From assembly GCA_015499995.1 (NCBI GenBank), contig JADNRV010000055.1, positions 124,001 through 188,000 on the forward strand: a DNA stretch of 64,000 bases. Reading direction: 5' to 3'. The translations under genes were made by a program, and so were the position numbers. Positions 5,843 through 63,653 of the stretch are shown here, piece after piece. The notes beneath the pieces were generated by a model. The model was not told where the DNA came from. It did not search any database and saw only the letters and a program-made list of their open reading frames with translations. The number at the start of each line of letters is the position of its first letter. The first letter of the stretch is position 1. This DNA comes from Flammula alnicola (taxonomy: Eukaryota > Basidiomycota > Agaricomycetes > Agaricales > Strophariaceae).

Positions 5843-7137
5843 CTAGACAATCTTAATGTTCAACCACCTCTGCAGTCCCTCCAAAATTACGACAGCCGGC
5901 CTCCATCCATCAGGGAAGAACTTACTGCCCACTAACCCCCTGATACACCATGCTTCGATCAACATGATGCCCCAGGACGAGATCCACAAATTAGCCCATG
6001 CCCATCCAAACGCGCCCTTCATGCGATGGCCCGTGACAGCCTTGAATTTGAACTCAAGGACGACGCCAACGCCCATCATCATAAAATATCCCACCACCGC
6101 GAGGAAGTCGCTTCCGCGCCCCATGCCCCACAGCCCTAGATAGTGCATGATGCCCGAGACGAAGAATGTGCCAAGGAAACCGCCAGTGCGACCAGTGAGG
6201 TACCCTACGGGTCTGCCGCCGGACTCGATAAAGATGTCCCGGAAGAGCTGATGCCAACGCGCCCAGAAGTTGACCACAGAGGTAGCGTACCATGGCTGGT
6301 CGAACAAGGGGGCCAGTCTGCGGGAGACTGTCTGAAAAGGATGATGCCTGGCAAGGTTAGGCAAGATAAAAGGATTGAATGGCATAGTAGATTGTCATGC
6401 CTGACAGAAATGAGATAGAGAAGCAGCGCAAGTACATATAGACAGGCGGGAGGGACGTGTCATATATGGATCCTCCCGCTGCAGAGCCGATGGAGTCTGG
6501 GCCGAATGCTTGCACTGCAAAGTGGAATAGGTCAAACAAGAAGAAGTGGATGAGAAAGGAGACGCAGGTGGAGAGAAGGAAGGATGAGAGGGAAGATGTG
6601 TTCCGCGTTTCGATGGGAATTTTGAGGCCATGAGACCAAGACCAGCCGATGCCGCGGAGGTTGCAGCAGAGGTCGAGGGCATCAATGTATTTGGAGCTGT
6701 GTGGCTTGTGGCGGCGGTATGGATGTTGCTTGAATGTCCAAACGCAGGCACGTATAGAAAGTACGGTCGTAACGAGCTGGACAGCAGAGAAAGAGTGAAT
6801 GCCAGAACGAAGAAAGAGAAGGGAGACATACAACGAGACCCTGGTTGAGATAGATTAAGCGGTCATGGTCTGCATAGCCGGCTACGAGATCTATATGGGT
6901 GGACACACGGAAGGCACCCCAGAGGCTTATGGGTAACAGTGCGAGTCGGATGGGGAAAGTATGTGGAGCGAGGACGAGGACGGCCGTGGCATAGTAGCAC
7001 AGTAGTGGGGGCAACACCTCGCGGGAGAATGTGTTCCAAGAGAGTGGCTTGCGTGTTTGCGCCAAATCTATGTTGAACCTGTTGTGAAATATGTCAGAAA
7101 AAGAGATATAGTATTAGAAGAGAGTTTACCAAGACAT
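5843..7137 (-). CDS. Wax synthase-like MBOAT acyltransferase (apparent frameshifts)
   Basis: Multi-pass membrane acyltransferase of the wax synthase/MBOAT_2 type, expected to move an acyl chain to an alcohol or a terpenoid-like acceptor at the ER. A short first exon M-S-W (7137-7130) splices at 7078 into F-N-I-D-L-A-Q. The second exon is rich in transmembrane segments; a further intron near 6830-6785 leads to the family motif R-G-I-G-W-S-W. The C-terminal exon has P-L-F-D-Q-P-W and the catalytic-region motif F-W-A-R-W-H-Q-L-F-R, with the candidate active-site His, then F-V-S-G-I-M-H-Y-L-G. Between these, two single bases seem to be missing: one near 6356-6361 and one in the G5 run 6308-6312, where D-W-P-P-L-F-D is expected. 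Restoring the frame conceptually gives normal family order, so I favour sequence error over decay. Confidence 0.68.
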
Positions 7138-7823
7138 TGGAAGACGAGAAAGAGTCGTACGACCTCATTTGCAATTGACAGTCCACTCCAAGCCCACTCT
7201 AACCCTAACCCTGCTCTAGGTCTAACCAAGCACAACGTCGATTCACAGGCACCTTGATGAGCGGCCCCTGCTGTCTCAAACGAACGAAGGCAACTGCCAG
7301 GAGGCCCAGGACATATTGGAAAATGACTGCTGACTCGGATGTGCGCGCGCTTCGTCCAATTGGGAGGTTATCACTGAGCGACATCAGCCCGAGCTGGGCT
7401 GCTTTGCCGTTGGTGTATGTCAATCCGACTCAATAATGGAGTTGTAGTTGCGTGTGTTGAGTTAAGAGTCAAGTTGTTTGGTTACTCGATGCATAAATTT
7501 GAGGATCCGGAAGGTGGTTTCGAAACAAATCAGGCAGGTCCTTTAATTACACGAGAATGTGTTTCTGTTATGCCATAGAAAGTGGGTTCTACATGAACTC
7601 ACATCAAAGGGTACATAGTCCGAAAAAATTCACATGGGAGCCGGGCGCGTAATAGGGTGGTAGGCTTTCTCCAGCAATTTATTTTACACATTTAAATGTA
7701 CAGCGTTTGAGCTCTTGTAGAAACCGGTTGGACTGATAGATACAGTTTAAAAAACATCGAGGAGGCCAGTACAGCGCCTCTTACCTTTGAGAACATTGAT
7801 ACTCGTATTGTAGGTCCAGAAAA
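7138..7823. other. Intergenic
   Basis: No gene supported. Holds two telomere-like CCCTAA units near 7199-7212, too few to mean anything, and the 3' flank of the WD40 gene. Confidence 0.4.
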
Positions 7824-9686: not shown

Positions 9687-9796
9687 GAATATATAAGCTT
9701 GACAAGTTTATTGGAACAAAGAGCATCATCCATGAGTCCAGGGCTGGTAATAAAAAGTTCTCCACTTACAAAATTCTCTGTCCTTCCGTTTATCGC

Positions 9797-10866: not shown

Positions 10867-11873
10867 ATGAAAGTAGCCGTCGCTGGATGCAACGGCCGAG
10901 TCGGAAGACGCGTCGTTAAATTGGCACTTGAACGAGGCAACACCGTCGTCGGCATCGACCTCGTTCAACAGTCTCCAACGACTATCCATGGCTTAGCAGA
11001 CCTGAATACACCTTCAAGCAGGCCGATCTGCAAGACTTCGATGCCGTTCTCGCCGTTCTTGAAGGCTGCGATGCTGTTGTCAACCTCGCGGGGCACCCCA
11101 ATCCTGTCGACTACCAAGTCAAGGCTCATAACAGGTGAGATCCGCACGGATAAACCTCGTCAGTTCATGATGCCAAGATACTAAATTATCTTCTTCAAAG
11201 TAATGTCGTTATCTCGTGGAACATCCTTCGCGCATGCGCAGAGCTAGGAATAAATCGAGTCGCACAGGCATCGTCTGTCAATGTCATCACTATGGTGTAC
11301 AGCAAACAACCTCGGTACCATTACTTCCCGATTGACGAAGACCATCCATGCGAACCAGACGAGCCTTATGGTCTTTCAAAAGTGTGCGTCTTCTGTCCAC
11401 AACGTAATCCTAAGCATCATCCTCACAATCTTCCCTCGAAGAATCTGCGAAATGCAGGCCGACAGCATAGTACGGCGATACGAATCGATGAGAATCGCCA
11501 GTCTGCGTCTTCATTGGTCTGTTCCCAATAAAAATTCGCCAACAGGCCTGGAGAGCCTGGACGCCGTGCAAAAGACCTGTGGGGATACGTCCAGGAAGAT
11601 TCGGGAGCAGATGCATTCCTATTAGCCATCCAAGATAGCAACAAATGGTCGGGGCATGAGCCGTTTTTCATCGCTGGCTCGGACACAGCATTCGAGGAAG
11701 AAACGATGACACTAATAGCAGCACATTGGCCAAATGTACCTATCAAAGAGGGCGAAACACTGGTCGGGAATCAAGGTCTTTTCGACTGCTCCAAGGCCGC
11801 GGCGTTGCTAGGTTGGCATCACAGAGACGATCTTCATGATAATGGACGATGGATATCACCGAAGTACAGATAA
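10867..11873 (+). CDS. NAD(P)-dependent epimerase/dehydratase-like protein (apparent frameshifts)
   Basis: Extended short-chain dehydrogenase fold. The start is M-K-V-A-V-A-G-C-N-G-R-V-G-R-R, a GxxGxxG Rossmann motif. Then comes V-V-N-L-A-G-H-P-N-P, the Ser-containing strand A-S-S-V-N-V-I, and E-P-Y-G-L-S-K, the YxxxK catalytic pair. The C-terminus reads F-F-I-A-G-S-D-T-A and A-A-A-L-L-G-W, ending in TAA at 11871-11873. Introns begin at the GTGAGA near 11133 and the GTGTGC near 11382. One base seems missing at the CC of 11001-11002 (D-P-E-Y-T-F expected) and one in the A5 run 11530-11534 (K-K-F-A-N-R expected). Probable substrate: a sugar nucleotide or a small alcohol/ketone; undetermined. 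It is convergent with NPR3. Confidence 0.7.
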
Positions 11874-14915: not shown

Positions 14916-17483
14916 CTATGCTGCGCGCTCGACGATGAGAGGGAGCTCAGGGTGCAGTTTTCCGCTCTTCGCCAAGGTAGGCACTGCAATTCCGCTCATC
15001 TTCCAAAATATTTCCTTGTCTGAAGGAGAGAACCGGAAGGCGTCTATCAAGAGCAAGAGCACGACCTCTGCAAATGATTTTTTTATCGTGAATAAGAAAA
15101 GGTTGACTAGGAGGGGGAAAATGGGATTTACTCATTTCCAATTGAGAAAATTTGAAGCCACTGTTATATTTTCAGAGGCGGCCACAAGGTAACTGTCAAG
15201 AAGCGACTTACATGCATGCCCTTCCACCGCCGAGGAACGTCATGCTAAACAATAAGCTAATAGTCACTCCAAGTCAATCTATATCAAATCAAAGGCCTTA
15301 CAGGTGCGAGTAGACACCTGGGAGATGTGCAGAAGGTACCGTCTCTGGGAGAGGCTTCAGCCATCTTTCGGGCTTCCATTCATAAGAGTCCGGTCCCCAG
15401 ATTTCGGGGTTGCGATTGGCTGCCATTATTCCTACGATGACATTCGTGTTGTTCGGAATAGGGATCTCGTGTATTTCCTGACCATTTATTCCCGTGATAG
15501 GCTTGGATAGAGGAAGAACGATGTCCTGTCGGGTTCTTTTGACAATATTATCAGTGACCATTGAAAATAGGGATAATCAGGGACGCACGTTCGTGATACG
15601 ACAGACACAGGTGCATAGCTGAACATTCGAAATTAATTAATTGATATTAAGACTATTGGTTGAACTTACAGCCTCAGGGTTTCTCGACAAACAGCATCGA
15701 GATATGGCAAAGAGACCAGCTGATCGTGGGGTAAATCCGATCCGTAGTGTTCCTTTGCCTCCCTTATTTCTTGACGAAGCTTGTCCTGAACGTCCTGGTG
15801 TGTTGACAAGAGGAATAATATGCGTGACAAGGCGGAAGAAGTCGTATCCATTGCGGCGAATGTCAGTGAGCTAGGAAATGGGGTTATAAAAAACTCTACA
15901 GGATGTTCGAATTTAGGACCTACGACATTTGGCCTAATAACTCTGCTTCGGTTAAAGTGTCTTCATCTGAAGCTGCCATATTTGCGCGCACTAGTCCAAG
16001 CAAAATGTTGAGCAAAATACTCGAGAATAAAGAGCAAGACGCACTTAAAATACTGAGAATGTCCTTGCCTTGTCCGATCTGCCTTGCTACAGCTTCGTCC
16101 CCTTCTCGCAGTGCCTTCTTCTTCGATTCATATATCTCGACTGAGGTGGCATGAAGTACGTCTACGATGTCCCGAAGCTCATGTAGCGATTTCCATGGAA
16201 CAACGTTTACGAGAAAACGTCGGAACTTGGGGGTCCCAATTTTGACGAGAGTGGAAAGTAGATATGTACGAGGGAATAACATCCTGAAAGAAACAGGTCT
16301 GATGACGGATCAATTATTATATACGGATTTTTCACAGACAAAAATATAAACTTACACGAGTAGCTTTGCCGACACACTATATGGGTGCGGTACACTATCA
16401 TCTGTCAATGGGTCAAACGAGTATCCGAGACCACTTTGACCTATCAGCTCGAGAGCAGTTCGAGTCATCCAAGATAAGACCTCGATCTTTATCCACAAAC
16501 AAAGCATCAGTATCGTTAAGAGTTATTCCCTGATAAGGACGAACCTCCTGTGGCCCACTTGCGACCCTTGCAGCGAATGCATCCTGAAGCTAGCATAACA
16601 TTGAGGAAAATTTGCTAAAAGGACAGGAATGACAGACCTTGCGGGTCACGGTATAGAATGTAGGAACTACGGAAGCATTAAGTATTCATCTTGTTGAACA
16701 TCTGAAGAGGACGTACGCATTTCACGCATATGCGCAATCGAAAATACTGGGTTTAGCATCTTTCGTTGTTTGCGATGTTGTTCACCTGGGAGCGCGGTTA
16801 GTTACCAGCGTAGATTTATTCATTCTGACAGGACCTTACCAAGGGTTCCGAGAAGTCCAGGACCTAGCATGACCTTGTTTCCTCTGAGAATGACGAGCGT
16901 TTGTTAGTTTCCGGTCTGGAGTTGCAAGTACGAGTCGTACTCAATAAATGACGAAGTCTCTTCATATATGTATTGATCCTGGAGTCAAATTGGACGAGAT
17001 TAACTGAGAATTTGTGGAGAAGTGGATGGTTCACCGACCTTGACAATTATATGGTGCATAGCCTTGGGATCGAAGACATATAACTGGTTTTCCTAGACGC
17101 CAGTTTGAGGAAAGAACTTCTCTAGCGAGCATCAACGGGCTCACACCAAACAGTGCCTTGATCTTGATAACACTTCCATCTGTTAAAAGCAACATTAGAC
17201 TTTATTGTTGACTATGAGATCGCGATAAGCTTACATTTTTCTGCCATTTCTCTGTGAAAGTCCCAGGCGTTGACGTTGAAGACCTGGGGGAAGGCACCTT
17301 TGTAAAGTGCGGTCAGCTAGAGTTCATTAGACAAGCTAAATGAATGCTACCTTTCCATAACGATTTTGGAGATGGACCTGGGATGTTATCGAGGGCGGAC
17401 TTCGCAAAGGACTGTCGAAATATTCTCCACAAAACCCAGGACAATGCATACAGGACGAGGGCTTGGATGAATATGATATACAT
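14916..17483 (-). CDS. Cytochrome P450 monooxygenase #1
   Basis: Start M-Y-I-I-F-I-Q-A-L-V-L-Y-A at 17483 gives an N-terminal membrane anchor and then the Pro-rich hinge I-P-G-P-S-P-K. About fifteen short exons join cleanly. Landmarks: the C-helix region H-R-K-Q-R-K-M-L-N-P-V-F-S, I-helix A-A-M-D-T-T-S-S, ExxR as E-T-L-R, P-E-R-W, and the heme loop G-G-G-R-A-C-I-G-F, whose codon for Ile is split by an intron. TAG stop at 14918-14916. No frame lesion found. It is an ER-bound monooxygenase needing a P450 reductase; substrate unknown, class not assigned. It is the intact member of a tandem pair with the gene at 18479-21103: intron positions and most residues match, so the pair arose by duplication. 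Confidence 0.88.
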
Positions 17484-18478
17484 CTTAGGCGGGAAAGACG
17501 ACAAGAGGTACAGATATGAGTTTGTCAAAGTGGGTTGAGCTAAAGTGGTCTCGCGGCTTTGATAGCATTTATACGCTTGCTCAAACCCATGAGAAAGGGT
17601 TGGCTTCAGATCCTTTAAAATCGGCTAAGCGGAGAACCGGATAGATGACCAGTTTTTGTCTACGTTGTAGACTGCGACGTTTGACAGGCGAGCTTGTGGG
17701 TGACTTCGCGTTGACGGGCCAAGTCTATATTCGTCCAAAAAATATGTAAAGGCCAGTAAATACGGCGAGTCGCGTGATAGCTCCACGATTTGGGAATAAG
17801 GATTAAAACTCGCACAGGATAAATCCGGAGGATGGGTAAATCACTCCTGAAAGTGGTAACTTTCAAGAACCAGTTACGGCTGCAGATTATCAGACATTCC
17901 CCAGTCTGGCACATGGCTGAGAGACGACTTGACAACGAGACGAGGTCAGAAGACTCTCGTGAGACAATTACCGATTGCTGATGACGAGCAGCCAGGAGTT
18001 TAGGCGTTGGAGAATTCGAAGATGCGAAGTTGGTGAGAAATTTAGAACCTCTCCGGTCTCTGAATCTTCCAACTGACAAAGTTATGATGACGCGGTTGGA
18101 CTGAGGGGGCCGGGTCAAAAAATTCCGCATGTTTGGTAAATTTGGAGAATCGTAGAGTTCCAGAAATTTGTACAAGGCCTTGAAAGAAGTCGGAGAAGAG
18201 ATAATTAGATCGATATCCCCGCGGCTACGTTTTGATGTTATGGTATGCTTGGCTATGCTTGTAATTGTTGGGTGATGATGACCTCTTTTTCGCTCCGTAA
18301 GACAGTTAGACGAACCTGCTGACCATCAAAGAGTTAGTCGGCAGGAGTTGATCATACATGTCGATGGGCCAGAACATGTCAAAGACAGGTAGATTAGGAC
18401 AAACGTTAAAACATCAAGGCGTGTCCTCTGGCTACTTACTACAACTTGAAGCTACATGAATGCACCTAGTAGTACCAG
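17484..18478. other. Spacer between the tandem P450 genes
   Basis: Upstream flank of P450 #1 and 3' flank of P450 #2. Short blocks such as GAGGTCAGAAGACTC near 17944 reappear near 21672 upstream of P450 #2, so the duplication unit included the promoter. A 171-codon minus-strand frame at 17660-18175 has no recognisable content and is not called. Confidence 0.5.
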
Positions 18479-21103
18479 TTATGCTGCGCGTTCAACAATG
18501 AGAGGAAGCTGAGAATGCGTGTCTGTGCGTAGCTTCGCTAATGTTGGCGATGAAATTGCATTCATCTGCCAGAATATCTCCTTATCTGAGGGAGAAAACC
18601 GAAAGGAATCGATCAGGAGCGAAAGTACCACTTCTGAACGTAAAGTTTAATATCATTGTTAGCCAGATAAAATCATTCAAGAACAACGAATAGAACTTGC
18701 TCATTTCCAGTTGGGAGAATTTGAATCCACTGTTGCAATCCCGGAAATAATTTAGCGACCGCAGCAACCTATCAGGGGGAGCCTTACATGCACGCCCTTC
18801 CTCCGCCGATGAACGTCATCCTACATGACGAGTAATAAATTACTTCAGGGTAAATCTGAATGCATAAAAGGACGTACAGGTGCGAATATATACCAGGAAC
18901 ATGTGCAGCAGCCACGGTGTCGGGCAAAGGGTTTAGCCACCGTTCAGGCTTCCATTCATGAGAGTCCGGCCCCCAGATGTCAGGGTTGCGGTTCGCCTCC
19001 AGTATTCCAACAACGACATTCGTATTGTTCGGAATAGGAATCTCGTGTATCTCCTGACCATCTATTCCTTTGATGGGCTTAGATAGAGGAAGAACGACAT
19101 CCTGTCGGGTCCTTTTCATGATGGAGAAATGTCAGTGGTGGTGGGAAAATAGCGAAAGTTTAGAGACGTACGTTCGTGACACAAAGGATACGGGCGGATA
19201 CCTGAGGGTCCGGAATCAGTCATTCGATATTAAGTGAGATTATTGAAACTGACATCCTAAGGCTTTCTCTGCAGAGGCATCAAGATACGGCAAAGAAACC
19301 AAGTCATCATAGTCCAAATCCGAATTGTGCTGCTTTCTTGCCTGTCTTATTTCTTCGCGCAACTTGTCTTGAACATGCTGATGCGTTGCAAGGAGGAGGA
19401 GTGTACGCGACAAAGCTGAAGAAGTTGTGTCCGTGGCAGCGAATGTCAAGGTTCTAGAACAGACATAATTTTAAAATCTGGGTGTATAGATATGAACAGC
19501 TGTTTTTGCAGTGCAGAACTCACGACATTTGTGCGAGTAACTCTTCTTGAGTTAAACTGTCTTCTTTAGATGCTCGCATGTTTGCTCTCACTGATCGCGA
19601 GTTAAGATTAAGCTTTTAGTGAAGCAAGCTGGGACGAAGGAAATGATGCCACTCACTCAGAATGCTGAGGATATCCTTGCCCTGACCAATTTGTGTCGCC
19701 ACAGCTTCGTCGCCTTCCTTCAGCGCCTTCTTCTTTGATTCGAATATCTCGACCGACGTGTTATGAAGGACATCGATGATATCTCGAAGGTCGTGTAAGG
19801 ACTTCCATGGAAGCAAATCTACGACAAAGCGCCGAAACTTGGGCCCCCGAGTTTGACGAGGGTCGAGAGAAAGTACGTGCGAAGGAAGAAGAACTTGAAA
19901 GTAGAAGGTCTGAGACCAATTCAGTAATCCAGCATGTTATCCATGTGAAGAGGGATGAACACTTACATGAGCTGCTTTGTTGATGTACTATATGGGTGCG
20001 GAATCCCGCCCTCCGTCAATGAGTCAAAGGAGTATCCGAGCCCACTTTGGCCTATCAACTCGAGAGCGGTTCGAGTCATCCAAGACAAGACATCAATCTT
20101 CAAAGTCGGAGCAGTGAATACCATGTAAACATGAATGTTGAAAAGCACGAACCTCTTGTGGTCCATCATTGACTTTGGCCGTGAAAGCATCTCGAAGCTA
20201 AGAGACAATGAGGAAGAATTCCAATACTAGGAAGTCGGTCCATACTTTATAGGTTATACTGTAGAAAGTAGGAACTACGGAAATAACTGGTTATTTCTTT
20301 CGTTTTAGCGCACAAACTTAACGTACTCATTCCACGCATATGTGCGATTGAGAACACTGGATTTAGCATCTTTCTCTGCTTGCGGTGTTGTTCGTCTAGA
20401 AACCAGATGAATTGCACGCTTATATGCTGTCAATAAAAGTCACTTACCAAGAGTTGAGAGCAACCCATGACCAAATATCAATTTGTTTCCTCTGGCCGTA
20501 GCAAAAGATGGTTATGTTCTGATATTCACTCACAGAAAGATATCATACTCAAGGAATGCTGAGGTCTCTTCGTAAATATGCTGATCCTGCATCGCATTCA
20601 GGTGAGGTAAGTCAAGTATCCAAGCTTCTGGAGAAGATGTTTATGATTCATTTACCTTGACGATTATGTGGTGCATCGCTTTTGGGTCGAAAACGTATAA
20701 TTGGTTTTCCTGAGTGCTATGGAGTTAGAAAATAACGTAGTCGCATCGGCCGATTTTTGGGCATACCCCGAACAACGCCTTTATCTTGATAACGCTGCCA
20801 TCTATTCGTCAAGAGATTCAGAACCTGATGTGGCATGAGGGTATCACTGTAAGCCACTTACATTTTTCTGCCATTTCTCTATGGAAATCCCAGGCATTAA
20901 CGTTGAAGACCTGGGGAAAGGCACCTTTGTAGCAGGGTATGATGAGCCTGAGTTCTTCAATGCAATAGATGGCCTATACCTTTCCATAGTGATTTGGGAG
21001 CAGGACCTGGGATGTTGGCAAGCGCAGATTTTGCGAAGAATGTCCTCCAGAATAGCCAGGATACTGCGTACAGAACGAGGGCTTGGATGAGTATGATAAT
21101 CAT
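18479..21103 (-). CDS. Cytochrome P450 monooxygenase #2 (paralogue of #1, apparent frameshifts)
   Basis: Start ATG 21103-21101 (M-I-I-I-L-I-Q-A-L-V-L-Y-A), hinge I-P-G-P-A-P-K, then the same exon series as P450 #1. It shares L-I-G-Q-S-G-L-G-Y-S-F-D, I-helix A-A-T-D-T-T-S-S, N-N-T-N-V-V-V-G, P-E-R-W and heme loop G-G-G-R-A-C-(I)-G-F, and ends V-E-R-A-A with TAA at 18481-18479. Two single-base losses are inferred against paralogue #1: one in the GGG at 19841-19843 before the K-F-R-R-F block, and one at 19276-19277 immediately before the ExxR motif (E-S-L-R). If real, either would abolish the enzyme; if sequence errors, this is a second working P450. Splice sites remain canonical, which favours a young or intact gene. 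Confidence 0.75.
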
Positions 21104-22604
21104 GATGAGTGGAGAAGGCAGGAGGCGCGAATACGGGGATTATTAAGGATGATTTGGTTTAAAGTTGGAGTATGGATCTGAGGATATATATATACATGGA
21201 TTCCCAGAATTCTAGATGCATGAGAAAGGGGCGTTCTCATTCACCTATCCTTGTCCAATCGGGCACCCACGGTGGCACCTTTAGACTTAGCTTTTGAATG
21301 CATCGCACGGTTGTATTTAATTTAGGTAGGTTGTTGTCGTCCCGTTCGTAAGATCGTCCATAGGTGGTATGAACGATATGACCGTTGCTTGTGGGTGCCA
21401 AGCCCAAAGTGACGATCTAAGCAAGTTTGCAATCCAAATGTTTCTGGAACAAGCGACGTAATACCTCAATAATGAGTGAACGGACTGGTGGTTCATGCGC
21501 CAGATCCGCGATTCGCAAGAATTTTAGGTTCTCTTGTCCGGGATATAATTTTTCCGTAGAATGGGTAAGTTCTTTGAAGCAGCAAATCATTAAGCTCAAG
21601 GTTCATAGCCACGACAAAATGTCGATAGAGATTGACAGAAAGCAGAGATAGACAGAAACACATGGCGACCGAGGTCAGAAGACTCGTGGCTCACAAGAGT
21701 GGAAGAAGCGGTCGTACTGGTCAGGAGGAACTGAGAATTCGAAGATGAAAAGCGAATCTCTTCACTGGCCACGGGATGACGAGATGATTGAACTTCATTG
21801 AAATATTTGTGTTCAGGCTTGGTTAACTTGAAGGCACGCGTGGCCTTGAAGATCGATTCAGCGATGCTAGTCTCCTAGAACACAAGCCATCGCGGTTGCA
21901 TCGCAGTATTGAAAGGCGACAGGTGCTGGGAGGACCGGTGGGGACCTCGTTTTGTTATGTAAGGTTTGCGGAAGAGAATCAAAAGTGAACATTCAACGTT
22001 CAACGTTCACCACTGCCAGCACTAGTTTACTGTTTGCGGTTATTAGGATGGCGTACTAGTTCAACTTGAATCTCTCGTTCGAGCTCGTTCGGCGACTTCA
22101 TGTTCGAGACAAGGTCATTGCAAAAATAAATTGTTAGGGAGACGCCTAATTTCCAGAACTATCCATATTTCAGGTTGAAGAGTTCTATTGAGGAGACGAA
22201 AAAAAGAAAATTATATTTCGCAGTGAATCTAGGGAATGGGAATAGTAGGCGAGGAATTCAAGAATGGGTAGGTTCGCAGAGCACTAAGTTGGACTAAAAG
22301 AATGGAGGTGGGATTAAGTGAAGGTTGAAAGGAACATAGAAGCTGTAGAGACCAAGAAAAGGGCATATATCAACTAAAGGATCGTAAGGGCTTGATGCGT
22401 AGTTGTACACGTCGGCCGGACTACTAGAAAACGATGAAAAAATAATGTCAGTGAAGTCCGAACCGTGATAAGGATTATCTACGTACCGTCACTGCATAGG
22501 GATAAGGATATTGTAGACTAAATTTTGTACAATGAATGAGGGGGTAAAAATCGCCATCAACGTCCTTTCTTCTTCCTCTCTTTTCGTTGTCTTTTCGCTG
22601 TCTT
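21104..22604. other. Intergenic, about 1.5 kb
   Basis: Contains the P450 #2 promoter (with a TATATATATA run near 21187) and the 3' flank of the Ser/Pro-rich gene. Blocks near 21670-21760 resemble the flank at 17940-18010. No gene, tRNA or transposon end recognised. Confidence 0.4.
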
Positions 22605-24298
22605 TTATTTTTCATCTTCATCAGGTATTTCCAGGATTTCGTCGGGTATATTGGGAACAGTATCGGTGTGGGGTTTCGTGATTGAGACGGATTCAAGAAG
22701 ATTGACGATATCTTCGAGATCGTCCTTGCTCTCCTGAGGGACAATCGTGGTTGGCTCATTGAGCACCTCCTCCGATTCGGCAGCAGGGGGCTCATGGCTT
22801 TCTAGGCCCGCCGGTTCCGCCTCTGGAGCTGGGGATGGAGAAATGGGCGTAGCTTCATTTTCTCCTGAACCAACACTTTCAGTATCAGCTGCAGGCTCAA
22901 TGTGTGCATCCTCGAGGACTTCTTCGGGAACTTCATCGGAAGCGTCTTCAACTGGCTCCGCTGATAATTCCGACGATTGAGACGGGTGCCCGTTCTCAGC
23001 GGCCTCCTCGAGGGGCGTTTCTTCGCCTTGGATGGCTGCGGCACCCAGACCGACCACTGATGCAGCAACAGCGGCTCCTGTTGCTGCCTGAGGCGTCACT
23101 GATTCCTTCTTCGCCTTTTTGATTGCAGGAGCAGTTTTGGCCTTCACGGTAGAAGAACGCGGAGTTACCGGGGCGGCAGAACGAGAAGTAGCAGCAGCAG
23201 CAGCCATTCTTGCCTGAGACGCGGCCGTGGGTTTACTCAGGCGATCCATGGAACTGCTGCTGAAAGTTGCCTTCTTGGTTGGCGTCGGTAACTGAGAGGG
23301 TGCATTGCGGGACTTGGCAAGAGAGGCAGCTGTTGGGGCGAATAAACCAGTAGAAGGTGTCTTTGGACGCGTGGAAGTTGGGGTTTTGGCGCGAGACGCT
23401 GCATCTAGACGAGAAGGCGTTTTGGAGCGAGCAGGGGTGGTAGGAGGTTTTGTCGCGGGCCTTCTTGTCGTCGTGCTTGAAGCCATCGAATGACCGGTGT
23501 GTTGAGGCTTCAAAGGTTGAGCTGCCGGGGATGCTAAAGATTGCCTGGACGCAGGAGACTTCAAAACGGACTTCACAGGCGTCTTCAAGGGTGCTGATGC
23601 GGATGTCTTCGAAGATGTAGAGGCAGACGTCCTTGTAGAAGCAGCAGTTCTTGAAGCAGCATTGGGAGTACGAGGTGTTACGGGTGTCCCAAATTTCTTC
23701 ACAGACGCTGGAGTAGGCGTCACCAGACTTGGCTCAGCATGAGATGCAGCTGGTGTTGCTGTCGCGGGTGTGGGTTCTGGCTCCATATCGCCTTGGGATG
23801 ATGGTAGGTCCTTCCTCCAATTCTCCAGGAACAAATTCGGCTCTGGCTTGACTTGCCGTTGAGAAGCGTTCAACAGCTTAGCGGTAAGAGGCACTTCCTG
23901 TTCATCCGTCTGAGATCCAGGTCCGTTTTCCCTCTTATCCTCGGTCGCAGAAGATGAATCGGAAATAGATGGCGTGATCAGAGCCGAGGGGATGTGGCGA
24001 GACGAAAGAGATGGTACGATCGGAGGCTGCTTCTGTCCAAAGTCGGTGACGGACTTTGGTGGCCATTCGCGTTTCTCCTTGATTTCCTCCTTGATCGAAT
24101 CCCCAGTGATGTCAGACACGACACTAGAGCTACGCGATGGTGAGCTGGCAGAGAGAGACAAGCGCTTTGTCTGCGTTTCGAATTTGCCAATGAGATTGGC
24201 TACGCTTTGCCGTGGACGCTCATCAGGTAGTGGCCTATATATTCCAGATGGATGAACAACGGTTTAAGACGCGACATGAATACTTGCTGCACTTACAT
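22605..24298 (-). CDS. Ser/Thr/Pro/Ala-rich protein of unknown function; start codon split by an intron
   Basis: One long exon (24234-22605) preceded by a two-base coding exon: the ATG appears to be A-T at 24298-24297 plus G at 24234, with a GTAAGT donor at 24296 and TATATAG acceptor. This gives M-P-L-P-D-E-R-P-R-Q-S-V-A-N-L-I-G-K-F-E; no other in-frame ATG exists near the 5' end. The N-terminal region has a short helical segment (S-V-A-N-L-I-G-K-F-E-T-Q-T-K-R). The middle (about residues 150-370) is low-complexity, basic and rich in T-P and S-P steps with repeated K-T-P and P-T-P-T. The C-terminal third is acidic. The pattern suggests a disordered phosphoprotein, perhaps binding microtubules or DNA. 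About 543 residues, no frame breaks, no named family. Confidence 0.75.
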
Positions 24299-25430
24299 CT
24301 GCGCCCCTGAAGCGCGGAATGTAGGGTGTGAATGTGTGTGGCGTTGATGTCAAGTTGAAAGACAAAGGAGAGGAGGAGGTGAGTTAGGACGGAGAAAAAG
24401 ATGGGATGGTAATGGGGCAACGAGAAGAGGTGTACGGATTTTGTAGAGTTGGCAAAGGAGTGGCTGTTGTAACTGAAAGGTATATGTGCTACATTAGGTA
24501 ATACCGTCGTGAAGCAGCGTGTTCAGCGTTTCCGGCCACCGCCAAGTAAAGACCGTCGCGTACAGTCCGCCAGAGACACTTTACTGTACTTCACCATCCA
24601 TCCACATGAGGATCGCAAAGTTTCCGCATAAAATTCGGTAAGCTAAAACTGCACCTGATGTGCTCGATTAGACAAGAGGCGAAATTGCTACATAGGGCGA
24701 GACAAAAACTGCCGTTGTTGAACAGCATCAAACATGACGGCCAGGACCATGAAAATAGTATGTACATAACGATGAGTTAGTCTAGGCCAGCCGCCAGAAT
24801 ATCCATATGACTCGAGATAGGAGTCTTTAAGGCGACGAAAGGGAGTTTCGCCGTCCTAAATGAACTTCAACTTGAAGTCCCGGACACCGGCCGGTTGAGT
24901 AAATTCGGATAATCGGGTCAAAAATTCTCGCTCGCAAGTTCCAGTTTGTTGAACTTTGATACGCTATTTCAGATAAAATTCAGCAGTGTTCGGCAGAGTA
25001 GTCAAAGAGCAACAGACCTGCCTATCTCAATGTAGCTCGGCCGAGAGGGGGTAAAATTTGTTGACCAAGGAGTTCGATCTGGCAAGCGTCGAGGATTGTT
25101 CAATGCCGAAGGTTGCGTTGGTTCCTGGAAACGGCGTTGGCTCACAGGAATGACCGTACGAGGTCGAAAACCTGAGAAGATTCAAAATAATTCTGAACAT
25201 CGTTATGTAATTGTACCAACCTTCGTGATATTGATCGCCCGCAAGACATTGACTTTGGGAACTGCGATGGGGAAGAACGCCAGTGATAAGTTACAAAAGG
25301 CAGACGCCAGGTGACTGGCAGCATTGGCATCAGTTTGCAAATCCGATCTGCAACATTCCATGATCCCTAGGGAATAGAGCAACAATATAACGCAGAAGAT
25401 AGATTGAAGACATACACAGGTATAAAGATT
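24299..25430. other. Intergenic, about 1.1 kb
   Basis: Untranslated leader of the Ser/Pro-rich gene (24299-24420) and spacer. Small open frames at 25096-25330 on both strands overlap each other and show no motif. Confidence 0.4.
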
Positions 25431-26273
25431 TCATGGCAGCCACTTGCTAATTATTGCCTGCAACTCACGCCCACTTCGTCCATGCCAAAAATGCGAGGCA
25501 TTCTCAACCTCCACTATTGACACATTTTGCCCTTGCAAGTCCGAGGCCCATGTTCTATATTTGACTTCGATGTAAATTCGTCATTATCGCCGAAGACGAT
25601 CAGAATTTGGAATCAGGATGCTTCACTAGTTCTTGCAACGCGCTGGTATATGACGATGAATTGAACAATGTAAGCCAGCCCCTGGGGCCGAGGGGATAGG
25701 AGAGCAATATGTGTGATGTTTTTACGGAGGGAAGAATAGGATGGAGAGACGCTATAAGGGAACCATGAGAATAACCCTGCAATAGAAAGTATCGCTCTTG
25801 TCTCAGCAACACAATAACAATGCGAATTTGGATGGAAAACAGACCAGAATTACGACTGAATGAACGTCCGAAACCTATCTACAGCCCATTTTGTGAGGGC
25901 CTTTAGATCTTCAACCTCATTGAAGCCAGTGAATGAAGATCGTCCAGTTGACCTACCAACGCCTCTCGAATTATACGAGAGAACATGGTAGTTGTGCGAG
26001 AGAAGAGGCTCCAGGAGAGACATGAGGACTCTGACAGAAAGCGGTCAGCCATTCCACGAACCCCAGGCAGAAAGTCAAAGGAACAGTAGAACTCACGGAT
26101 CTCCTTGCGTCCTCCGAGCCACGACCAAGGATGCAAACATATCGCAAGTTTGTTGCCCCCTTCCGTCGCACTGCTGTCTGCAGGTGCAGGTTTCCAGAGA
26201 TCAGATCAAGGGTAATGCCTGTGGGCAAACCGATTTCAAGTTCCTGTGGGTAAGACGCGGATTCTGAGGTCAT
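25431..26273 (-). CDS. Alpha/beta hydrolase (apparent frameshifts)
   Basis: Start ATG 26273-26271. Order of motifs: L-P-T-G-I-T-L, then K-L-A-I-C-L-H-P-W-S-W-L-G-G-R (oxyanion region), H-N-Y-H-V-L-S-Y-N-S-R-G-V-G-R-S, then G-Y-S-H-G-S (nucleophile elbow, Ser), S-Y-P-L-G-P-R-G-W-L-T, V-F-G-D-N-D-E-F (acid) and A-S-H-F-W-H-G (catalytic His), ending S-K-W-L-P with TGA at 25433-25431. Three single-base losses are inferred: near 26195, at 25603 and in the TTT run at 25560-25562. Each restores a family motif when allowed for. A serine hydrolase of unknown substrate, probably cytosolic. Head-to-head with SEM1 across 165 bp. Confidence 0.72.
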
Positions 26274-26438
26274 TCTACATTAAGAGCTCCTTAATTGAGC
26301 GCTGTGTTATGTCTAGTTGAACGCGATGCGCGTGAGGACATGAGCAATAATATAAATTCCCACGCGTCGCGATCAACCCATTGACAGGAGACGCGTCACA
26401 TTCTTGCTTTCCTTCCACAAACACCAATCGTCTACACA
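26274..26438. promoter_or_regulatory. Shared bidirectional promoter, alpha/beta hydrolase and SEM1
   Basis: Only 165 bp separate two divergent start codons. The stretch includes TATAAATT near 26351 and must hold the control elements for both genes. No specific factor site is identified. Confidence 0.5.
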
Positions 26439-26870: not shown

Positions 26871-27113
26871 GAACAAACCTGTATATCATGACATTTTCTC
26901 CCTCGTCTACATCTTCACTTCTCTGGACCAAGATGACTCTCAGGTTACAGGCGTCAACATCTTCAGAGAGTGAAACAGACGGTATGTATTAAAGATTCCG
27001 AAAATCATACTTTCTCGAAGAGTAGAAAGGATAAAGAAACTTGGCTCATCACGTTCGTCGTTATACGTAGCGTATTCGTAAAAAAAAAAACCAGACAACT
27101 TCAAGAAATCGAC

Positions 27114-42851: not shown

Positions 42852-43933
42852 CGTCACCCTCCTAACCCACACGTTTTGTCACGACCCAACTTCTCGTCTG
42901 GCTCGGATGCTAAAGAAGAGCGACAAAACGGAACTCTTATGACCTTTCTCTGCTGAGTCCTGGCCAAGCACTATCGGTACACAACATCCGACCGATATCG
43001 AGGGCGTCAATCTCTCATGGGCCTCGATTGTCTTTGCTCCATCTGCAATTCTGGGGAATTTTACTCTCAGCCCCCAACACCGGCTTCACAACTCTATGCC
43101 AAGTTCGAATGTCAAGTCCGTGTAGGTAGTTGCAGATACAGGTCAATAACTTCCCGCCAACTTCAAGTTTGGAGCATCGACAGGGATTTCAGATGACCGG
43201 GCTCGGAGACGGGACCTATGTATGATAGCATGTAGGACATCTGTATTGGCAATTCTCACGTCGGTGAGAATCATTGTGATGACATGGACGGCCTGACCGA
43301 CCACCATATGTATGTATTTCCTCTCGAGTAGTGTACCGTCTTAAGCTTCAACCCCCTCTCTTCTGCCTTGCTTACACCGATCTATCACCCATGCCCACGT
43401 TCACACCGTTGAGCATGAACGACATACTTTCTTTCACATTCCTGGATCAATGCAAAACCGCAATGGCAGTGCCGAATAATGAATGAATGCAGACAAGAAC
43501 ATGAATCAAGACGCGAGGCTTGACTAGAGTTCCAGGGCATGCCAGCAGCATTCTGGAGCGACATCTCCTTGGCGAACGGCGATAACAACGTCCATTAATT
43601 TTTACTTCCATGACATTGATTATCCATGTAAAGACTCGCCTCCCAGCATCGCGCGGCGGTTACATACAGGACCAAGGTTTCTAGGGACTCCGAGTTCGCC
43701 AAGCGCACGTGTGACCTGTCTCAAAGTCTGAACGCGACGTACTTATATCCTGCTCGATTTCTGCTTCTTGAAGGCTTTCACATCAGATACCTAAATCCAG
43801 GCTTTGACAAAAATCCCGCGTCCGAGTCGGTCGATCCCTGACGAACCCCCACTCTTCGTCTGTCTCACTCTCACCACAACATTGGAAACTATACCATCGT
43901 CAGAGACGTACAGGAATTAATCGAACGAACACG
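42852..43933. repeat. Right copy of the diverged direct duplication (about 42933-43283) and PFK promoter
   Basis: Counterpart of the segment at 41855-42265. The rest, 43284-43933, is the upstream region of phosphofructokinase, with a TATATCC near 43744 and a C/T-rich leader before the start at 43934. Confidence 0.45.
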
Positions 43934-46900
43934 ATGAAGATCGCCATTCTCACTTCGGGCGGCGATAGCGCAGGGATGAACGCCGCCGTGCGGGCTATCG
44001 TTAAATGTGGTATTATCAAGTGAGTCGTGTCCGTGTTTCAGTTTCGTGGATCCCCGTATTCAGCATGTCTGCTCCTTCAGAGGATGCGAGATGTGGGTCG
44101 TCCGCGAGGGATATGAAGGACTAGTGCGGGGAAACCAAGTGCCGGCCGATCAGGCCGACAACATCGCCAACGCGGAGGCCGCCAGAAGAGTCGAAGAAGA
44201 AGTCCAGGCGGGTCAGAGCGTCCTCAAACTGACCAAACCCGATAAGAATCTGCTGCACAACTTGCGTTTCGGAGACGGGGACCTGCTGAGGGACAGGACG
44301 AGCGAGTACGCGGGCGGCCGGACGCTGAAAGGGCGGTATATCGTTCGTGTTGGATGGGACGATGTGCGCGGATGGTTCTCGGAGGTAAGGCGGGCAAACC
44401 TCCGTCGCCCTCGGCCAGATCAACTCACGCTATATTTCTCATCGACCCATAGGGTGGTACACTCATTGGAACTGCTCGGTCAGAAGCGTTCAGAACAATC
44501 GAGGGGCGTACAGCCGCTGCGTTCAATCTGATCAAAGAAGGAATCGACGCGCTCGTCGTCTGCGGTGGTGACGGTTCGCTCACAGGAGCGGACGTCTTTA
44601 GAGCGGAATGGCCTGACCTCATCAAGAAGTTGCATTCCGAAAGTGCGCTTTTGCCAATGTTTCAGCTTTGCGATTAGCGTTGACACCAATTGAACCTCTT
44701 TAGATCTAATTACCGATGACCAACTCAAAGTCCATGCGCACCTCAAGCTCGTTGGGCTTGTGGGCTCAATAGATAACGACATGTCCTTGACGGACTTAAC
44801 CATTGGGGCTCCCACTGCCCTGCAACGCATCTGTGAGGCCATTGACAACATCAACTCCACCGCATACAGTCACTCGCGCGCGTTCGTAGTCGAGGTCATG
44901 GGTCGGGACTGTGGATGGCTCGCGTTGTTAGCTGGTGTTGCGTGAGTCTTCCTTCGTTCTCTTGTTGCGATTGAGAGGGCCTGACAACATGCGCAATGCG
45001 GATGTGTAGCGGTGGTGCCGATTTCATCTTCATACCCGAACATCCTCCTGCGACGATGCCCTGGGAGGACGCTATGTGCGCCGAGATTCATCGTGTCAGT
45101 TGCTTTGTTTCCTCGCAAACACCTCTTGCTTATACCATGCATATACATTCAGCATCGTGAGATAGGCAAACGTAAAACGATCGTCATCGTCGCAGAAGGT
45201 GCGCATGACATGGACCTGCAGCCCATCCGCGCCGAGTACGTCAAGGATGTCCTCACGGAGCGCCTGGGGCTTGATACACGTGTTACGACGCTTGGTCATA
45301 CGCAACGCGGTGGTCGGCCATGTGCCTTTGACAGGATTTTGGTAATTTATATCCCCTGTTGCGTTTAGTTGAGTGGCATTGCTTATTCGTGATGTAGCCG
45401 ACATTACAGGCGTAGAAGCCGTCAACGCCCTCTTGGAAGCTGAGCCCGGCACCCCAACCTACATGATCGGCGTGCAAGAAAATAAGATCCATCGCGTTCC
45501 ATTGATGGATGCTGTACGATTGGTATGCAGTTCTTTCCATCTTCGAGCCACAATTCTTGACCCTGTCCTCCTAGACGAGAGCAGTTGGGCAGGCTATGAA
45601 GGACAAGGATTTTGACAAGGCGATGGAGCTTCGAGGTCCTGAATTCTTGGAGATGCGGCACGGATTCCAAGCAATATCGCGCTTGACAAACGAGAAAGAC
45701 AATTGCCCTTGAGCAAGGTGGGTGTTTTTTGGTTGGAGTTTTCGAGATACAATTTTTGAGGCTTTGAGATTACAGAGGATGCGTGTCGGTATCATCCAGT
45801 GAGTATACCTCTTGAACAGCGCATGCAGTATTCTGAACGACAACTCTGAAATTAGTATGGGTGCTCCTGCGGGTGGAATGAACGCTGCTACACGAGCTAC
45901 CGTTCGGTACTGCATCAGCCAAGGGCATACTCCACTCGCCATTCATAACGGTTTCCGAGGCCTACTGGACGATAATGTCAACGAGCTCTCGTGGCTTGGT
46001 GTCGATGCCTGGATGCCTCGGGGTGGCTCTGAGCTGGGGACGAACCGTGTTCTGCCCTCGGTCGACATCGGCGGTGTGGCCTCCAAATTCCAACAATTCA
46101 AACTCGATGCGCTTCTCATCATTGGGGGGTTTGAGGGATTCAACGCCCTGCGGCTTCTGGATGAAGGCAGGAAACATTATCCTGCATTCCATATCCCGAT
46201 GGTGCATCTTCCCGCCACTATCAGCAATAACGTCCCGATGACGGAGTACAGTCTGGGAAGCGATACAAGTTTGAACGCGCTCGTGGACGCATGTGATGCT
46301 ATTAAGCAGAGTGCCAGTGCCAGTAGAGATCGAGTGTTCGTTGTCGAGACACAGGGCGGGAAGTGTGGATATATCGCAACGATGGGTGCCCTTGCTGTGA
46401 GTTTTTTATTTTGGGCAACAGTGTCGTGAAATTTCATTGATGATGTTGGAATAGGTCGGAGCAAGCTTGGTGTATACGCCTGAGAACGGAATGGGATTGG
46501 ATATGCTGAGACGCGATGTTCGGTTCTTGAAGACGAGATACAAGTTAGACGTTCCAGGAAGAAGTGAAGGCCGTCTGTTATTAGGTATGACGCGAATACT
46601 GGTTGGATATCCTGCAGTAACTGACATTTTCATGCGTAGGAGTGAAGCCGCGTCAGACGTATACACAACATCGGTGCTCACGAAGATGCTCATTGAAGAA
46701 GGTGGAGCCCTGTTCGATGCCCGTTCCGCGTCCCTTGGGCACACCTTGCAGGGTGGTGTCCCTTCACCCATGGATCGTGCACGAGGCGCACGTCTATCAC
46801 TCAGGGGCATGGCTTTCATAGAGCAGCACCACGAGATCCTGTCAAAGCAACCCGCACACAAGATGCGACATGCGGGGCCTGACTCGGCAGCGGTGATCAC

Positions 46901-47086
46901 GATCCAGTCGAGCAGTGTGCAATGGGTGCCTGTGCAAGATATGGTACAGCATGCAAATATGCCCAACCGACGGGTAAGGTCAACTGGTGGGCAGGTATAA
47001 CGGATCTGGTGGAGCAATTGGCTGGAAAACCACAGTTTTTGGGGATTCCCAAGTCGGAACGGCCTATTACGGACGTGAAAGCATAG
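43934..47086 (+). CDS. PFK1: ATP-dependent 6-phosphofructokinase (eukaryotic double-length type; apparent frameshifts)
   Basis: Commits glucose to glycolysis: fructose 6-phosphate plus ATP gives fructose 1,6-bisphosphate. Two fused PFK halves are visible. N-half (catalytic): [33 protein letters not shown] (catalytic Asp region), [20 protein letters not shown] and F-D-R-I-L. C-half (allosteric): [39 protein letters not shown] and L-G-H-T-L-Q-G-G. The end after conceptual continuation is [13 protein letters not shown] 47084-47086. Apparent single-base losses: GG at 45409-45410, AAA at 45695-45697, around 46580-46584, and GGG at 46972-46974. Since PFK is normally single-copy and needed, these are best read as sequence errors. 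Confidence 0.93.
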
Positions 47087-47386
47087 ATAGATACCATGCG
47101 AGGGTTTTATGTAAAATAAGCACCAGAGAAAATTTGTAGATTTTTGGGAGATGCTTGTTTAATGGGATGAGCGTGGGAAATGCCGGTGGTGTTTTGATGT
47201 GTTGATTAGAGAGGGTTGATCACGGACAACACGCACCTCCGTTACTTTTGTCCACCGCTGCTATCATGGTTGCCCGTCCTCCTCTCCCCGTTAGATTTGC
47301 AAACCCAAACATAAAGGAACACCGTCCGTCATATTACCCTTATTACCCCTATAAACGCTCACATCTCTCTAGTCAATGCGCCCCAT

Positions 47387-48726
47387 ATGCCACCAGTAAA
47401 GTACCAGATCCTCAATTGCCAAGGAAAAGACATCCTTGTTCGTACCCTATTTGTCTTACAGCCGTTTCATGCTCATAAAATATCTTCTATCTCTAGGTCG
47501 GAAGACTCAAAATCGAGACACCAACTGTATGCCACCGCCAATCTAAGCGAATATATAGATCCGTCTTGCTGACCCCTCCTTTACACAGGACACCGGCCAT
47601 GCTTTCATCCTGCGGAGATTCGACACCGGCGCTATCAGCCTCACTACGATGTTCCGTGCTGCTTTCCCAATGCCACCGACAATGAAGAGAAGATAGAGAT
47701 ACAGTGGGTCAGGGAGAACTACGACTTGAGTGGGAACAACGGATCCACCAAGGACACCCACATCACCCGCCTCGCGGGTACATGGGTAAGTCCGCAGGTC
47801 GCGTTGGAGCTCGGAAAGGCGTATGCGTTGGGGGAAATCATTAACGCCGTCGTTGATGCATCTCCTGATCCCAACGGCAACTACAGGAGGTCAGGAAAGG
47901 CCGCTGGAGGGGGAATAGCCGTCGCCCATCCCCCCTTTGGTGCCACCACCGTCACTACCGCTGCGCAAACTACCACCACCACAACCTCATCCATAGTAGT
48001 GTCGAAGCCACCATCTGCCGCAAAGTCCCTCCCTACTCCCTCGCCGACTGCTGCGAATCCGCCCGCGAAGCGCCGGAAGGAGTCTTCACCAGTACCGACC
48101 CCTCAGAGCAGTAAGCCGCCATCGCGAGCGTCTCCTGCCCCGCCAAGACTGTCCCGCCGCGACGATCTACACGTACCAAGAGCCCGGCGCCACGATCCGT
48201 GGCAGCGACTGTTGTGAATCGTACTCCCAAGGCCACTCGCTCGGCTAAGAAAGAGGCAGTTGCTGCGACATCACTGACTCCCGGTGGTTCAGACTTGACA
48301 GCTGTAGAAGAGAGAATCAACTTGTAGAAGATGGTGTGGCTGGATCTGAGCTACGAGAGGAGGATATCAAGGAGCAGCAGAGACTTATTAAAGACCTCAA
48401 ATCGAAGCGCGATGCGGCGAAGTCGGCGGCGGAGGAAGGTGGCATGGACGTTGGCGAGGAGTCATCCAAGAAGAGGGAACGAGAAGAAGAAGACAAGCCG
48501 TTGCAATTCACGTTCAAGGAGCCTGAGGCAGAAGAACGGGCAATCGCGACGAATAGACGGGTTGGTCGTTTCCATCTAGAGCCTAGGGCCAATCTTTTGC
48601 CTGGGGCATCGCAGCATTCGCTGTGGGTATGGGGGCTGTGTGAGTGTGATTCCTTCCTGTAGCATATATTGTTACTAACAATAAACCCTCTTCGGGTTTT
48701 GCAGGTACTTGCCAACCTTCTTCTAG
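47387..48726 (+). CDS. KilA-N/APSES-like protein related to bouquet formation protein 4 (Bqt4) (apparent frameshifts)
   Basis: Start M-P-P-V-K-Y-Q-I-L-N-C-Q-G-K-D-I-L-V at 47387. After two introns: D-T-G-H-A-F-I-L-R-R-F-D-T-G-A-I-S-L-T-T-M-F-R-A-A-F-P, then E-I-Q-W-V-R-E-N-Y-D-L-S-G-N-N-G-S, H-I-T-R-L-A-G-T-W-V-S-P, A-L-E-L-G-K-A-Y-A-L. This is the KilA-N-type fold seen in Bqt4. A Thr/Pro/Ser linker follows, then a coiled acidic stretch (E-E-D-I-K-E-Q-Q-R-L-I-K-D-L). The end is a single membrane span W-G-I-A-A-F-A-V-G-M-G-A-V, L-P-T-F-F, TAG 48724-48726, so it is probably a tail-anchored inner nuclear membrane protein that tethers chromatin or telomeres. Apparent base losses: AA 47669-47670, about 48155-48163, AA 48319-48320, AA 48591-48592. 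A further one-base mismatch lies near 47500. Confidence 0.78.
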
Positions 48727-60999: not shown

Positions 61000-61472
61000 A
61001 CAACCCCTCTCCGGCCGGATGTTTACGATGCAAGAGTGGCATTCGTGGAACTCGGCACAATTAACCCGGCACGGTAGGCCAAGGAGCAACTGTTTTTCCT
61101 TCAAGCCCGGAGCGCCTAAAATTTAGCGCGCATCACACGAGATGGTGCCAGTGAAACGCGTGGAACACCCTCTAACCAGAAAGACGTAGATTAGAAGCAG
61201 TCTGCAGTTCAAACTCGTCTCTGAATTCTGATTTACTTGGTAATGTAGATATTGACCTCCTGCCGTTCCACCACGATCCTCCCCCAATGCTCTGCAGCTC
61301 TCGTGAAGAACATTGGTACGCAATACTAGTCATGCACCTCACTTCGACCGCTGGCATCGTTCGAAATGATTGATTGAGCAATGGGATCTATATAGTGCAA
61401 GGGTATGTGCTCATATTCTGCTTAGTACAAGCGCGATTAACACATTCCGAAAGGTGTATCTTGTTAATACAT
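61000..61472. other. Intergenic
   Basis: Between the retro-insertion and the end of the monooxygenase gene. Minus-strand frames at 61123-61381 overlap and look like chance. Confidence 0.4.
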
Positions 61473-63653
61473 TTACGAGGTCGAGGACTGCGTTGCAGCC
61501 CGGCGGTTAGCAAGTCGCTCTTCCGTAAGGTTGGAAATTTCCTTCACGTGAATGACCTTGAATGGCCAAGTCAACCAATTACCACCACTCCGGTGGCTCG
61601 GCAGATACATATCTTCTAAAAGTTCATCCGCAACCTGAGGCCATCTAAAATATAGCGCCCCATGAAATATAATCCCATTGAAGTACAGTCGGGAAGGACT
61701 CACGTTAAATGATCAAGACCCGTGCTTTCACTCTCGGTAACCCATGGTACCACGTTCGGAAAGCGAGTCCTCATCCAGGCACATCGCTCTTCAGCCTTCT
61801 CGAGCGCTTCCTGTGGCGACGAAGGAAGATGCATCTTGTCACCACGAAAGTAGGATGCGATCCAATGAGCAGTGACCTCATTGGTGTAGCCGTAATTTGC
61901 ACTGTACTGCCATTTCAAAGCATAAGAAAGGCTCGAGAAAATACAACTTGAAGATGACTCACTGAAGCTCCAGCAATCGCGAAATCCCGTCTTTCGATAT
62001 TCTTTGCTGGTATTATTCCACGATAAATAGACGTCACCCATTTCTCGTTCTCTGGATTAAGCTCTGGAGCATATTTCAAGCTCTTGTATTTCCAGACCTT
62101 CTTGACATCTGCCTGAGGCGCATGTTTATTTAGTCCAATTTCTTCCCTCATTTCCGCTGCATTCAAAGTTGAATATGCCAATGAGTGCGAGTGAACACAG
62201 TCACTGACAAGCAAAATATAAAGGAAAGCGTACGTGTAAATATCGATGTCCATAAGGGTTGGTATCCTGTGGCCAAAACGACAACCTTGGGCGCAAAAAA
62301 TCTCCCGTCGCTCAACAGAAGCGACTTGCCCTCATTTGAGTAGCCTATTACTCGCGCGGGTGCGATCACTTCAATTGCCCCCGAGTTAGCAAGGGCGTGA
62401 AAGCTGTTCAAACGTACGACTCCTTCGTCGCTGACCCGGACGGTCCAGAACAAGGGTTGTGTCTGTCGCAATGGAGAATCTTGAGAAATGTTATAAGCCT
62501 TGAACTGTGTTGCAAGATGAGCGAAGGCAAGCAAAGATGATGATTTAATGCAACTGACTGGCAAATCTCCTACTATTTTCCAGATGATGGCACTCCCAAC
62601 TGTTGTCATATGTAAAAAGCGCCTAACAGAAATATGAATGTGTTATACTACACCAAGAAAAACTCACTCCGGAGGCGTATTTAGAGTGGAGTGAGGTGAA
62701 AGCATGCTAGAGAATCTGTAGACAATTGAATGTTATATTCATTAAACACCTGGGAGGGAAACGGCACAGACCTGCTTTTCCGTAGGAATAGCGGTATCAA
62801 AGATGGTCCCGCGAGCAACGTATCGGTTGTCTCGAAGACAATTGCTGTTTTTCGACCTTCATCGGTTAATTTGGCGCAGACGCTAAACATCACGTTAATT
62901 TACTTGTGGTTAAGAATATTCTCCAGGAAGGCTCACTCTTGAGCGGATTTTCCGCCACCGACGACCAGAACTGTATCACTTTCATCGCGGTCTTCGTGTG
63001 ACTGGCTTAACTGTCGTCAACATATTATCCATTCGAGAAGCGAACTCGGACGAGTGAATGACCATTGCGATAGTTTCAGTGGGTTTTTGTGAGAAGGCTT
63101 TTGGAATTTTCGGGGTGCTGCATCCCTTTCGAAGAAATTTTTAAAACTGTAACTGAAAGGAAGTTATCGAACCTACTCCTGTGGCAAGGATAATGCGAGA
63201 GAATGCCAAGACTTTCGAAGACTTTGAGCGCTTATCTTCCACCTGGATTTGCCATTGCCCACTGTCGTTGCGCTCGATGTCGAGGACCTCTGTCTCCATT
63301 TCGAATTTTGCCTTGTCTTTTAGAAATTGTCCTCCACATAACTACACATGTCAACTCCGGTAAGACGATGGTCGCCTGCAGAGCCTTCCGGAGGCGGCAT
63401 GTCCAATGCAGAAAATTGGTATTCACGGTGAATGCTAAAAGAAGTGAACATGCTGAAAATCCAAAAATTTAGGACGAGGCTCACTTGTTGAGGTAAAGGC
63501 CTGGATAAACGCCCATGTTCCGCCAACGGTTTTATCCCGCGAAATGAGTGTGATATCTGTGAAGCCATCTTGGAGCAAGACATGCGCATTGATGAGGCCA
63601 GCAACGCCAGCACCAATAAGCCCTACTGACTCATGGATAATGTCGTCCGACAT
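61473..63653 (-). CDS. Flavin-containing monooxygenase-like FAD/NAD(P)-binding protein (apparent frameshifts)
   Basis: Start M-S-D-D-I-I-H-E-S at 63653 leads to V-G-L-I-G-A-G-V-A-G-L-I-N-A, the GxGxxG FAD motif, then V-G-G-T-W and G-V-Y-P-G-L-Y-L-N-N. Later blocks: Y-Q-F-S-A-L-D-M, S-Y-V-E-D-N-F, I-I-L-A-T-G, V-L-V-V-G-G-G-K-S-A-Q-E (second dinucleotide site, near 62960), V-V-V-L-A-T-G-Y-Q (FMO-type ATG motif) and W-L-T-W-P-F-K-V-I. TAA at 61475-61473. One base seems missing in CCC 63512-63514 (T-W-G-V-Y expected) and one at 63323 (N-F-L-K-D). A class B-type monooxygenase adding oxygen to N, S or carbonyl substrates; substrate unknown. Confidence 0.78.

Follow-up and report, generated by a model that had tools for sequence, protein, structure and literature searches.

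Why do the conserved motifs of gene after gene along one stretch of the Flammula alnicola genome continue in a shifted frame, as if bases had dropped out of the coding sequence? The stretch, called the window below, comprises 64,000 nucleotides (bases 124001-188000 of the 313,630-base contig C501) of the draft assembly of this wood-decay mushroom; the assembly amounts to 74.4 Mb in 861 contigs. An original prediction listed 18 sites where the frame appears to shift, including sites in the genes for the two-domain fungal 6-phosphofructokinase (PFK) and for SEM1/DSS1, and considered base-calling or polishing error the best explanation. The comparisons described here, with proteins of related agarics and with second copies of parts of the window in the same assembly, support that explanation: the frameshifts are very probably patchy consensus errors of a draft assembly that was itself probably made from long reads, and the organism's own genes are taken to be intact. 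Fifteen of the 18 listed sites were borne out as base losses, whereas site 40492 was not supported, and the statement that almost all the changes are losses held for all 15 confirmed sites.

Proteins were aligned to the DNA with a purpose-written aligner that places both introns and frameshifts; long stretches of these genes without any shift served as its only internal control. The references were 12 PFKs, five epimerase-like proteins and five Bqt4-like proteins, each set taken from 119 listed homologues other than the species' own. Every reference aligned, 12 or five depending on the gene, demanded a frameshift at all eight of the listed sites tested in this way, i.e., those at 11001, 11530, 45409, 45695, 46972, 47669, 48319 and 48591. 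The PFK gene (43934-47080, forward strand), which was identified by Pfam PFK matches and by agreement with the 12 agaric PFKs aligned to positions 43850-47300, is broken at 45407-45410, 45695-45710 and 46971-46974 in 12 of 12 alignments; a possible fourth shift at 46575, beside an intron, was placed with eight of the 12 references. In-frame stop codons were absent from all 12 PFK alignments. The epimerase-like gene (NAD(P)-binding; 10867-11870, forward strand), compared with five agaric homologues, is broken at 10969-10984 and 11533-11548. Likewise, the gene at 47266-48723 on the forward strand, designated Bqt4-like (HTH APSES-type) after the protein P0256, is broken at 47661-47670, 48137-48143, 48310 and 48585-48591. 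In both cases, all five references agreed on each shift. The aligner's positions can lie some way from those listed: site 11001 was placed 17-32 bases off, at 10969-10984, and site 48319 nine bases off, at 48310. The loss at 48137-48143 was missing from the list. Most of the shifts were written by the aligner as a codon of two bases, equivalent to the loss of one base; a five-base codon, written for P0002 at 45710 and for P0125 at 11548, amounts to the same change of frame. The PFK and Bqt4-like genes are adjacent (43934-48723), and their homologues in Galerina marginata carry consecutive locus numbers (247728 and 247727).

A search of the genome with the Pfam PFK model, in which only the best candidates were scored, found one PFK gene, the one in the window, and a fragment on contig C296 that matches 44342-44540 and 44866-44953 at 92-94% identity, with the intervening stretch absent. 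A decayed PFK paralogue lying beside a good one was thus ruled out within the candidates scored, as no other PFK turned up except this fragment. Real loss would leave the fungus with three or four breaks in the only PFK found, which is hard to credit. The fragment is perhaps a captured or decayed piece of the gene; at its locus of 3.1 kb (C296:13863-16979; L006/L054) it is joined across the missing 325 bases, and the remainder of the locus has no match in the window.

Positions 16258-31963 of the window have a second copy of 15.7 kb on contig C465 (L059), against which losses can be counted directly. Counts were taken from the two alignment rows with an identity of at least 90%, paralogous rows of ~68% being excluded, and the length of homopolymer runs was measured in the longer copy. 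Over the whole alignment, with no limits chosen, 47 one-base gaps were found versus 126 substitutions. The gaps are unevenly spread, and four segments were delimited (starting at 16258, 24561, 28381 and 29961), with limits chosen after the gaps had been seen. The first, 16258-24560, is clean, with 29 substitutions and four gaps in 8.3 kb, and includes the open reading frame at 22605-24263, which shows no gap at all relative to the second copy. In the next segment, 24561-28380, 21 single bases and three longer stretches are absent from the window, three single bases and four longer stretches are absent from C465, and there are 17 substitutions; the listed sites 25560, 26458, 26817 and 27338 all lie here. 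The SEM1/DSS1 gene, too, is found in this patch (26439-26860, forward strand, limits approximate and set by eye). It was identified by a match to Pfam PF05160 at 26507-26767, exists in two copies, one in the window and one on C465, both of which match PF05160, and is one base shorter in the window at 26458 and 26816. Between 28381 and 29960, where site 29252 lies, the picture is reversed: 14 single bases and 15 longer stretches are missing from C465, as opposed to two and one, respectively, from the window, with 20 substitutions. Thus, the burden of losses shifts near 28380 from mainly the window to mainly C465. The 15 multi-base stretches missing from C465 measure 2-20 bases and fall within 1.6 kb, which indicates that losses of several bases are also part of the noisy patches. 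From 29961 to 31963, finally, there are 60 substitutions, with two one-base and six longer losses in the window and two and four, respectively, in C465.

How unusual this pattern is can be judged from control alignments elsewhere in the assembly, for which five alignments with more than 93% identity, totaling 31.4 kb, were obtained from four of six contig pairs; these pairs presumably represent alleles rather than recent duplicates. They contain 15 one-base gaps versus 437 substitutions (0.5 gaps per kb), whereas the patch at 24561-28380 contains 24 versus 17 (6.3 gaps per kb), a difference with a Fisher p value of 6e-20 for a patch whose limits were set post hoc. The whole-alignment ratio of 47:126, compared with 15:437 in the controls, suggests that the excess of one-base gaps is unlike the normal variation of the species. 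In the bins from 26500 to 28000, seven one-base gaps occur with not a single substitution, a combination that ordinary decay would hardly give. The one-base losses in the patch at 24561-28380 also favor homopolymers: runs of at least three bases account for nine of the window's 21 losses and for about 14% of its bases there, and runs of at least four for six of 21 and about 5%, respectively. As for the prediction that most losses sit in runs, the five listed sites where the window is one base shorter than the second copy (19841, 25560, 26458, 26817 and 27338) are in runs of six, four, four, two and five bases, respectively, but when the indels of the patch are counted by run length, only the nine of 21 mentioned fall in runs of at least three.

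Eight of the listed sites can be read in a second copy, and the window is the shorter one at seven of them, by one base at the five sites just named and by ten bases at 63323 and 63512, so that the description of the losses as single-base ones fits the former and fails for the latter two. At 19841, the gap in the window relative to C465 lies in the adjoining run, at 19849. The exception among the eight is 29252, where C465, which is noisy there, is the shorter copy; judged by eye from a transporter motif that we presume to recognize, the window seems to be one base short at this site as well. The two ten-base differences belong to a gene piece on the reverse strand (63323-63514), which we presume from a motif to be FMO-like. 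Contig C247 matches 2,456 bases of the window here at 94% over 2,491 bases. In a 261-base stretch, whose 242 aligned bases contain five substitutions, the window is ten bases short after about 63330, and a second shortfall of ten bases, seen by eye in two printed strings, follows at about 63512, within about 190 bases of the first. It is possible that this gene represents a real broken allele or a polymorphism, and it is for this gene only, and as a possibility, that the earlier suggestion of a share of real decay is retained. Site 6308-6312 lies in an MBOAT_2 gene piece (5843-6394, reverse strand; PF13813). The PF13813 match starts at residue 28, at about 6313, which is the site itself, and is silent on the frame before it; a second copy around 6308 was not found in the assembly.

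Errors in a consensus would be expected to alter length more often than base identity, to be enriched in runs and to leave the longer form in a second copy, and all of this was found, the last at the seven of eight readable sites. They would probably arise over a few kilobases at a time, wherever the consensus had thin read support or the reads were shared out between the two copies of a locus; bases would then be dropped from the consensus, preferentially in runs, usually singly but on occasion up to about 20 together, while the organism's own DNA would be intact. Division of the reads between copies would fit the observation that one copy is poor where the other is good. Perhaps low coverage is needed as well, since PFK is affected and no second full copy of it was found. 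Patchy rather than even errors would also explain the clean genes between the patches. What is published on the sequencing is compatible with such an origin. The taxonomy assigns a single taxid to the names Flammula alnicola and Pholiota alnicola, and PMC8480192 includes Pholiota alnicola AH 47727, with the accession JADNRV000000000, which may be the present assembly, among 14 agarics that were sequenced, describing for these genomes Illumina and PacBio data, assembly with Velvet, AllPathsLG or Falcon, improvement with finisherSC, polishing with Quiver and annotation with the help of RNA-seq. The cause, we infer, is that read support was low, or was divided, in an assembly made with PacBio, Falcon and Quiver. 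Residual indel errors in long-read assemblies as described for small genomes (PMC12007338) and bacteria (PMC8812927) are similar in being small errors of length, many of them in homopolymers, that break reading frames; here, in contrast, the errors come in patches, in a eukaryotic assembly with two copies of some loci, and include some losses of several bases.

The main competitor would be that the window carries really decayed copies on one haplotype of a dikaryotic or diploid fungus, with intact genes on the other. That the window is so consistently the shorter copy at the readable sites, that the assembly has several two-copy stretches, and that the FMO-like gene combines two ten-base losses with its substitutions would all suit this explanation. 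However, no second full copy of PFK or of the epimerase region was found in the genome search, nor was one found for the MBOAT piece. Moreover, decay should add substitutions and stop codons alongside indels, which is not what the PFK alignments or the bins from 26500 to 28000 show, and, relative to substitutions, one-base gaps are far more frequent in the patch than in the controls. Finally, the supposedly intact copy, C465, is the worse one in the next patch. We therefore regard a decayed haplotype as improbable. Still less credence is given to a variant in which the losses are real, patches of the genome in either nucleus having been hit by bursts of short deletions that brought few substitutions, the burden passing from mostly one haplotype to mostly the other near 28380. 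The genome might also be correct as printed, with the cell restoring the frame through programmed frameshifting or RNA insertion editing, and it is true that several independent genes show the same kind of shift, with bases lost at all 15 confirmed sites. In that case, the base should be absent from all genomic copies, but the longer form is present in the DNA of the assembly's second copy at the seven of eight readable sites, and recoding or RNA editing was rejected for this reason; nor was a common sequence seen around the sites when they were inspected by eye. It is given next to no weight. The same holds for the idea that the shifts are unrecognized introns misread as frameshifts. At site 40492, where the net length does not differ, there may indeed be an intron, or the frame may have been misjudged, but as a general cause introns were rejected, because an intron-aware alignment, with introns of 49-68 bases, still requires the shifts at all eight tested sites with every reference, and because the deposited gene models evade the shifts only by means of introns of 25-41 bases.

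Several observations weigh against consensus error. Longer gaps number seven in the patch at 24561-28380 and 41 in the controls, so ordinary longer indels do exist in this species. Six of the 21 one-base losses of the window in that patch are outside any run, and the otherwise clean stretch at 16258-24560 still contains site 19841. Simple homopolymer error does not usually account for gaps as long as the two ten-base losses in the FMO-like gene. At site 40492, which lies in an F-box-like open reading frame (40337-41551, reverse strand; match below the curated cut-off), 200 bases of the window align to 200 bases of C465 at 99% identity and the net length is equal; here, an intron or a misread frame may be as likely. 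For the method used for each species, PMC8480192 refers to its supplement. The case as a whole is built from assembled sequences and proteins. Even so, the proposal of base-calling or polishing error gains support from the second copy, where the one-base losses are out of proportion to the substitutions, patchy, and switch from one copy to the other.

The losses have left traces in the deposited gene models. The deposited proteins P0001 (PFK), P0121 (epimerase) and P0241 (Bqt4-like) fit the window over 762/762, 272/272 and 361/361 residues, respectively, if very short introns are allowed. Nine of the 22 introns in these three models measure 25-41 bases, i.e., 27, 25, 33 and 41 in PFK, 29 and 35 in the epimerase-like gene and 32, 41 and 26 in the Bqt4-like gene, whereas those placed by means of the relatives' proteins measure 49-68 bases. 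The short introns are located over or near the losses. In PFK, the loss at 45407 lies ten bases beyond the end of the pair of 27 and 25 bases; the intron of 33 bases falls on 46575, the doubtful site, and on the intron adjoining it. The PFK model also splits a 56-base intron in two, has an extra 78-base intron over the loss at 45695 and contains a 138-base intron in place of two normal ones and the exon that separates them; the Bqt4-like model bridges the loss at 48137-48143 with an additional intron of 53 bases. Judged from their lengths and positions, the short introns seem to have been inserted by the gene finder to keep the frame, and the exact fit of the three proteins by way of such introns resembles the spurious micro-introns of automatic gene models. 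The deposited PFK has 762 residues, whereas the eight nearest of the listed relatives (P0002-P0009) have 830-843.

Some further features of the window can be mentioned. Alignments to C465 at 14917-17478 and 19961-21098, of about 68% identity and off the collinear line, point to a duplicated gene within the region. Repeated units of 67-79% identity at 1-600, 3298-3398 and 3581-3695, with one more just left of the window (C501:121499-121920), perhaps represent a small tandem gene family. A tRNA-Leu gene (anticodon TAA) was found at 63792-63878 with ARAGORN and Rfam.

The frameshifts are very probably an ordinary artefact of little biological import; what matters in practice is that the gene models are faulty. 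In such patches, the public proteins of the Flammula alnicola genome are not to be trusted at face value, and anyone who draws on this assembly to survey intron length, gene loss or protein domains could be misled by false signals. Where an assembly contains two copies of a locus, comparing how many one-base gaps and how many substitutions separate them reveals such patches without recourse to the reads.

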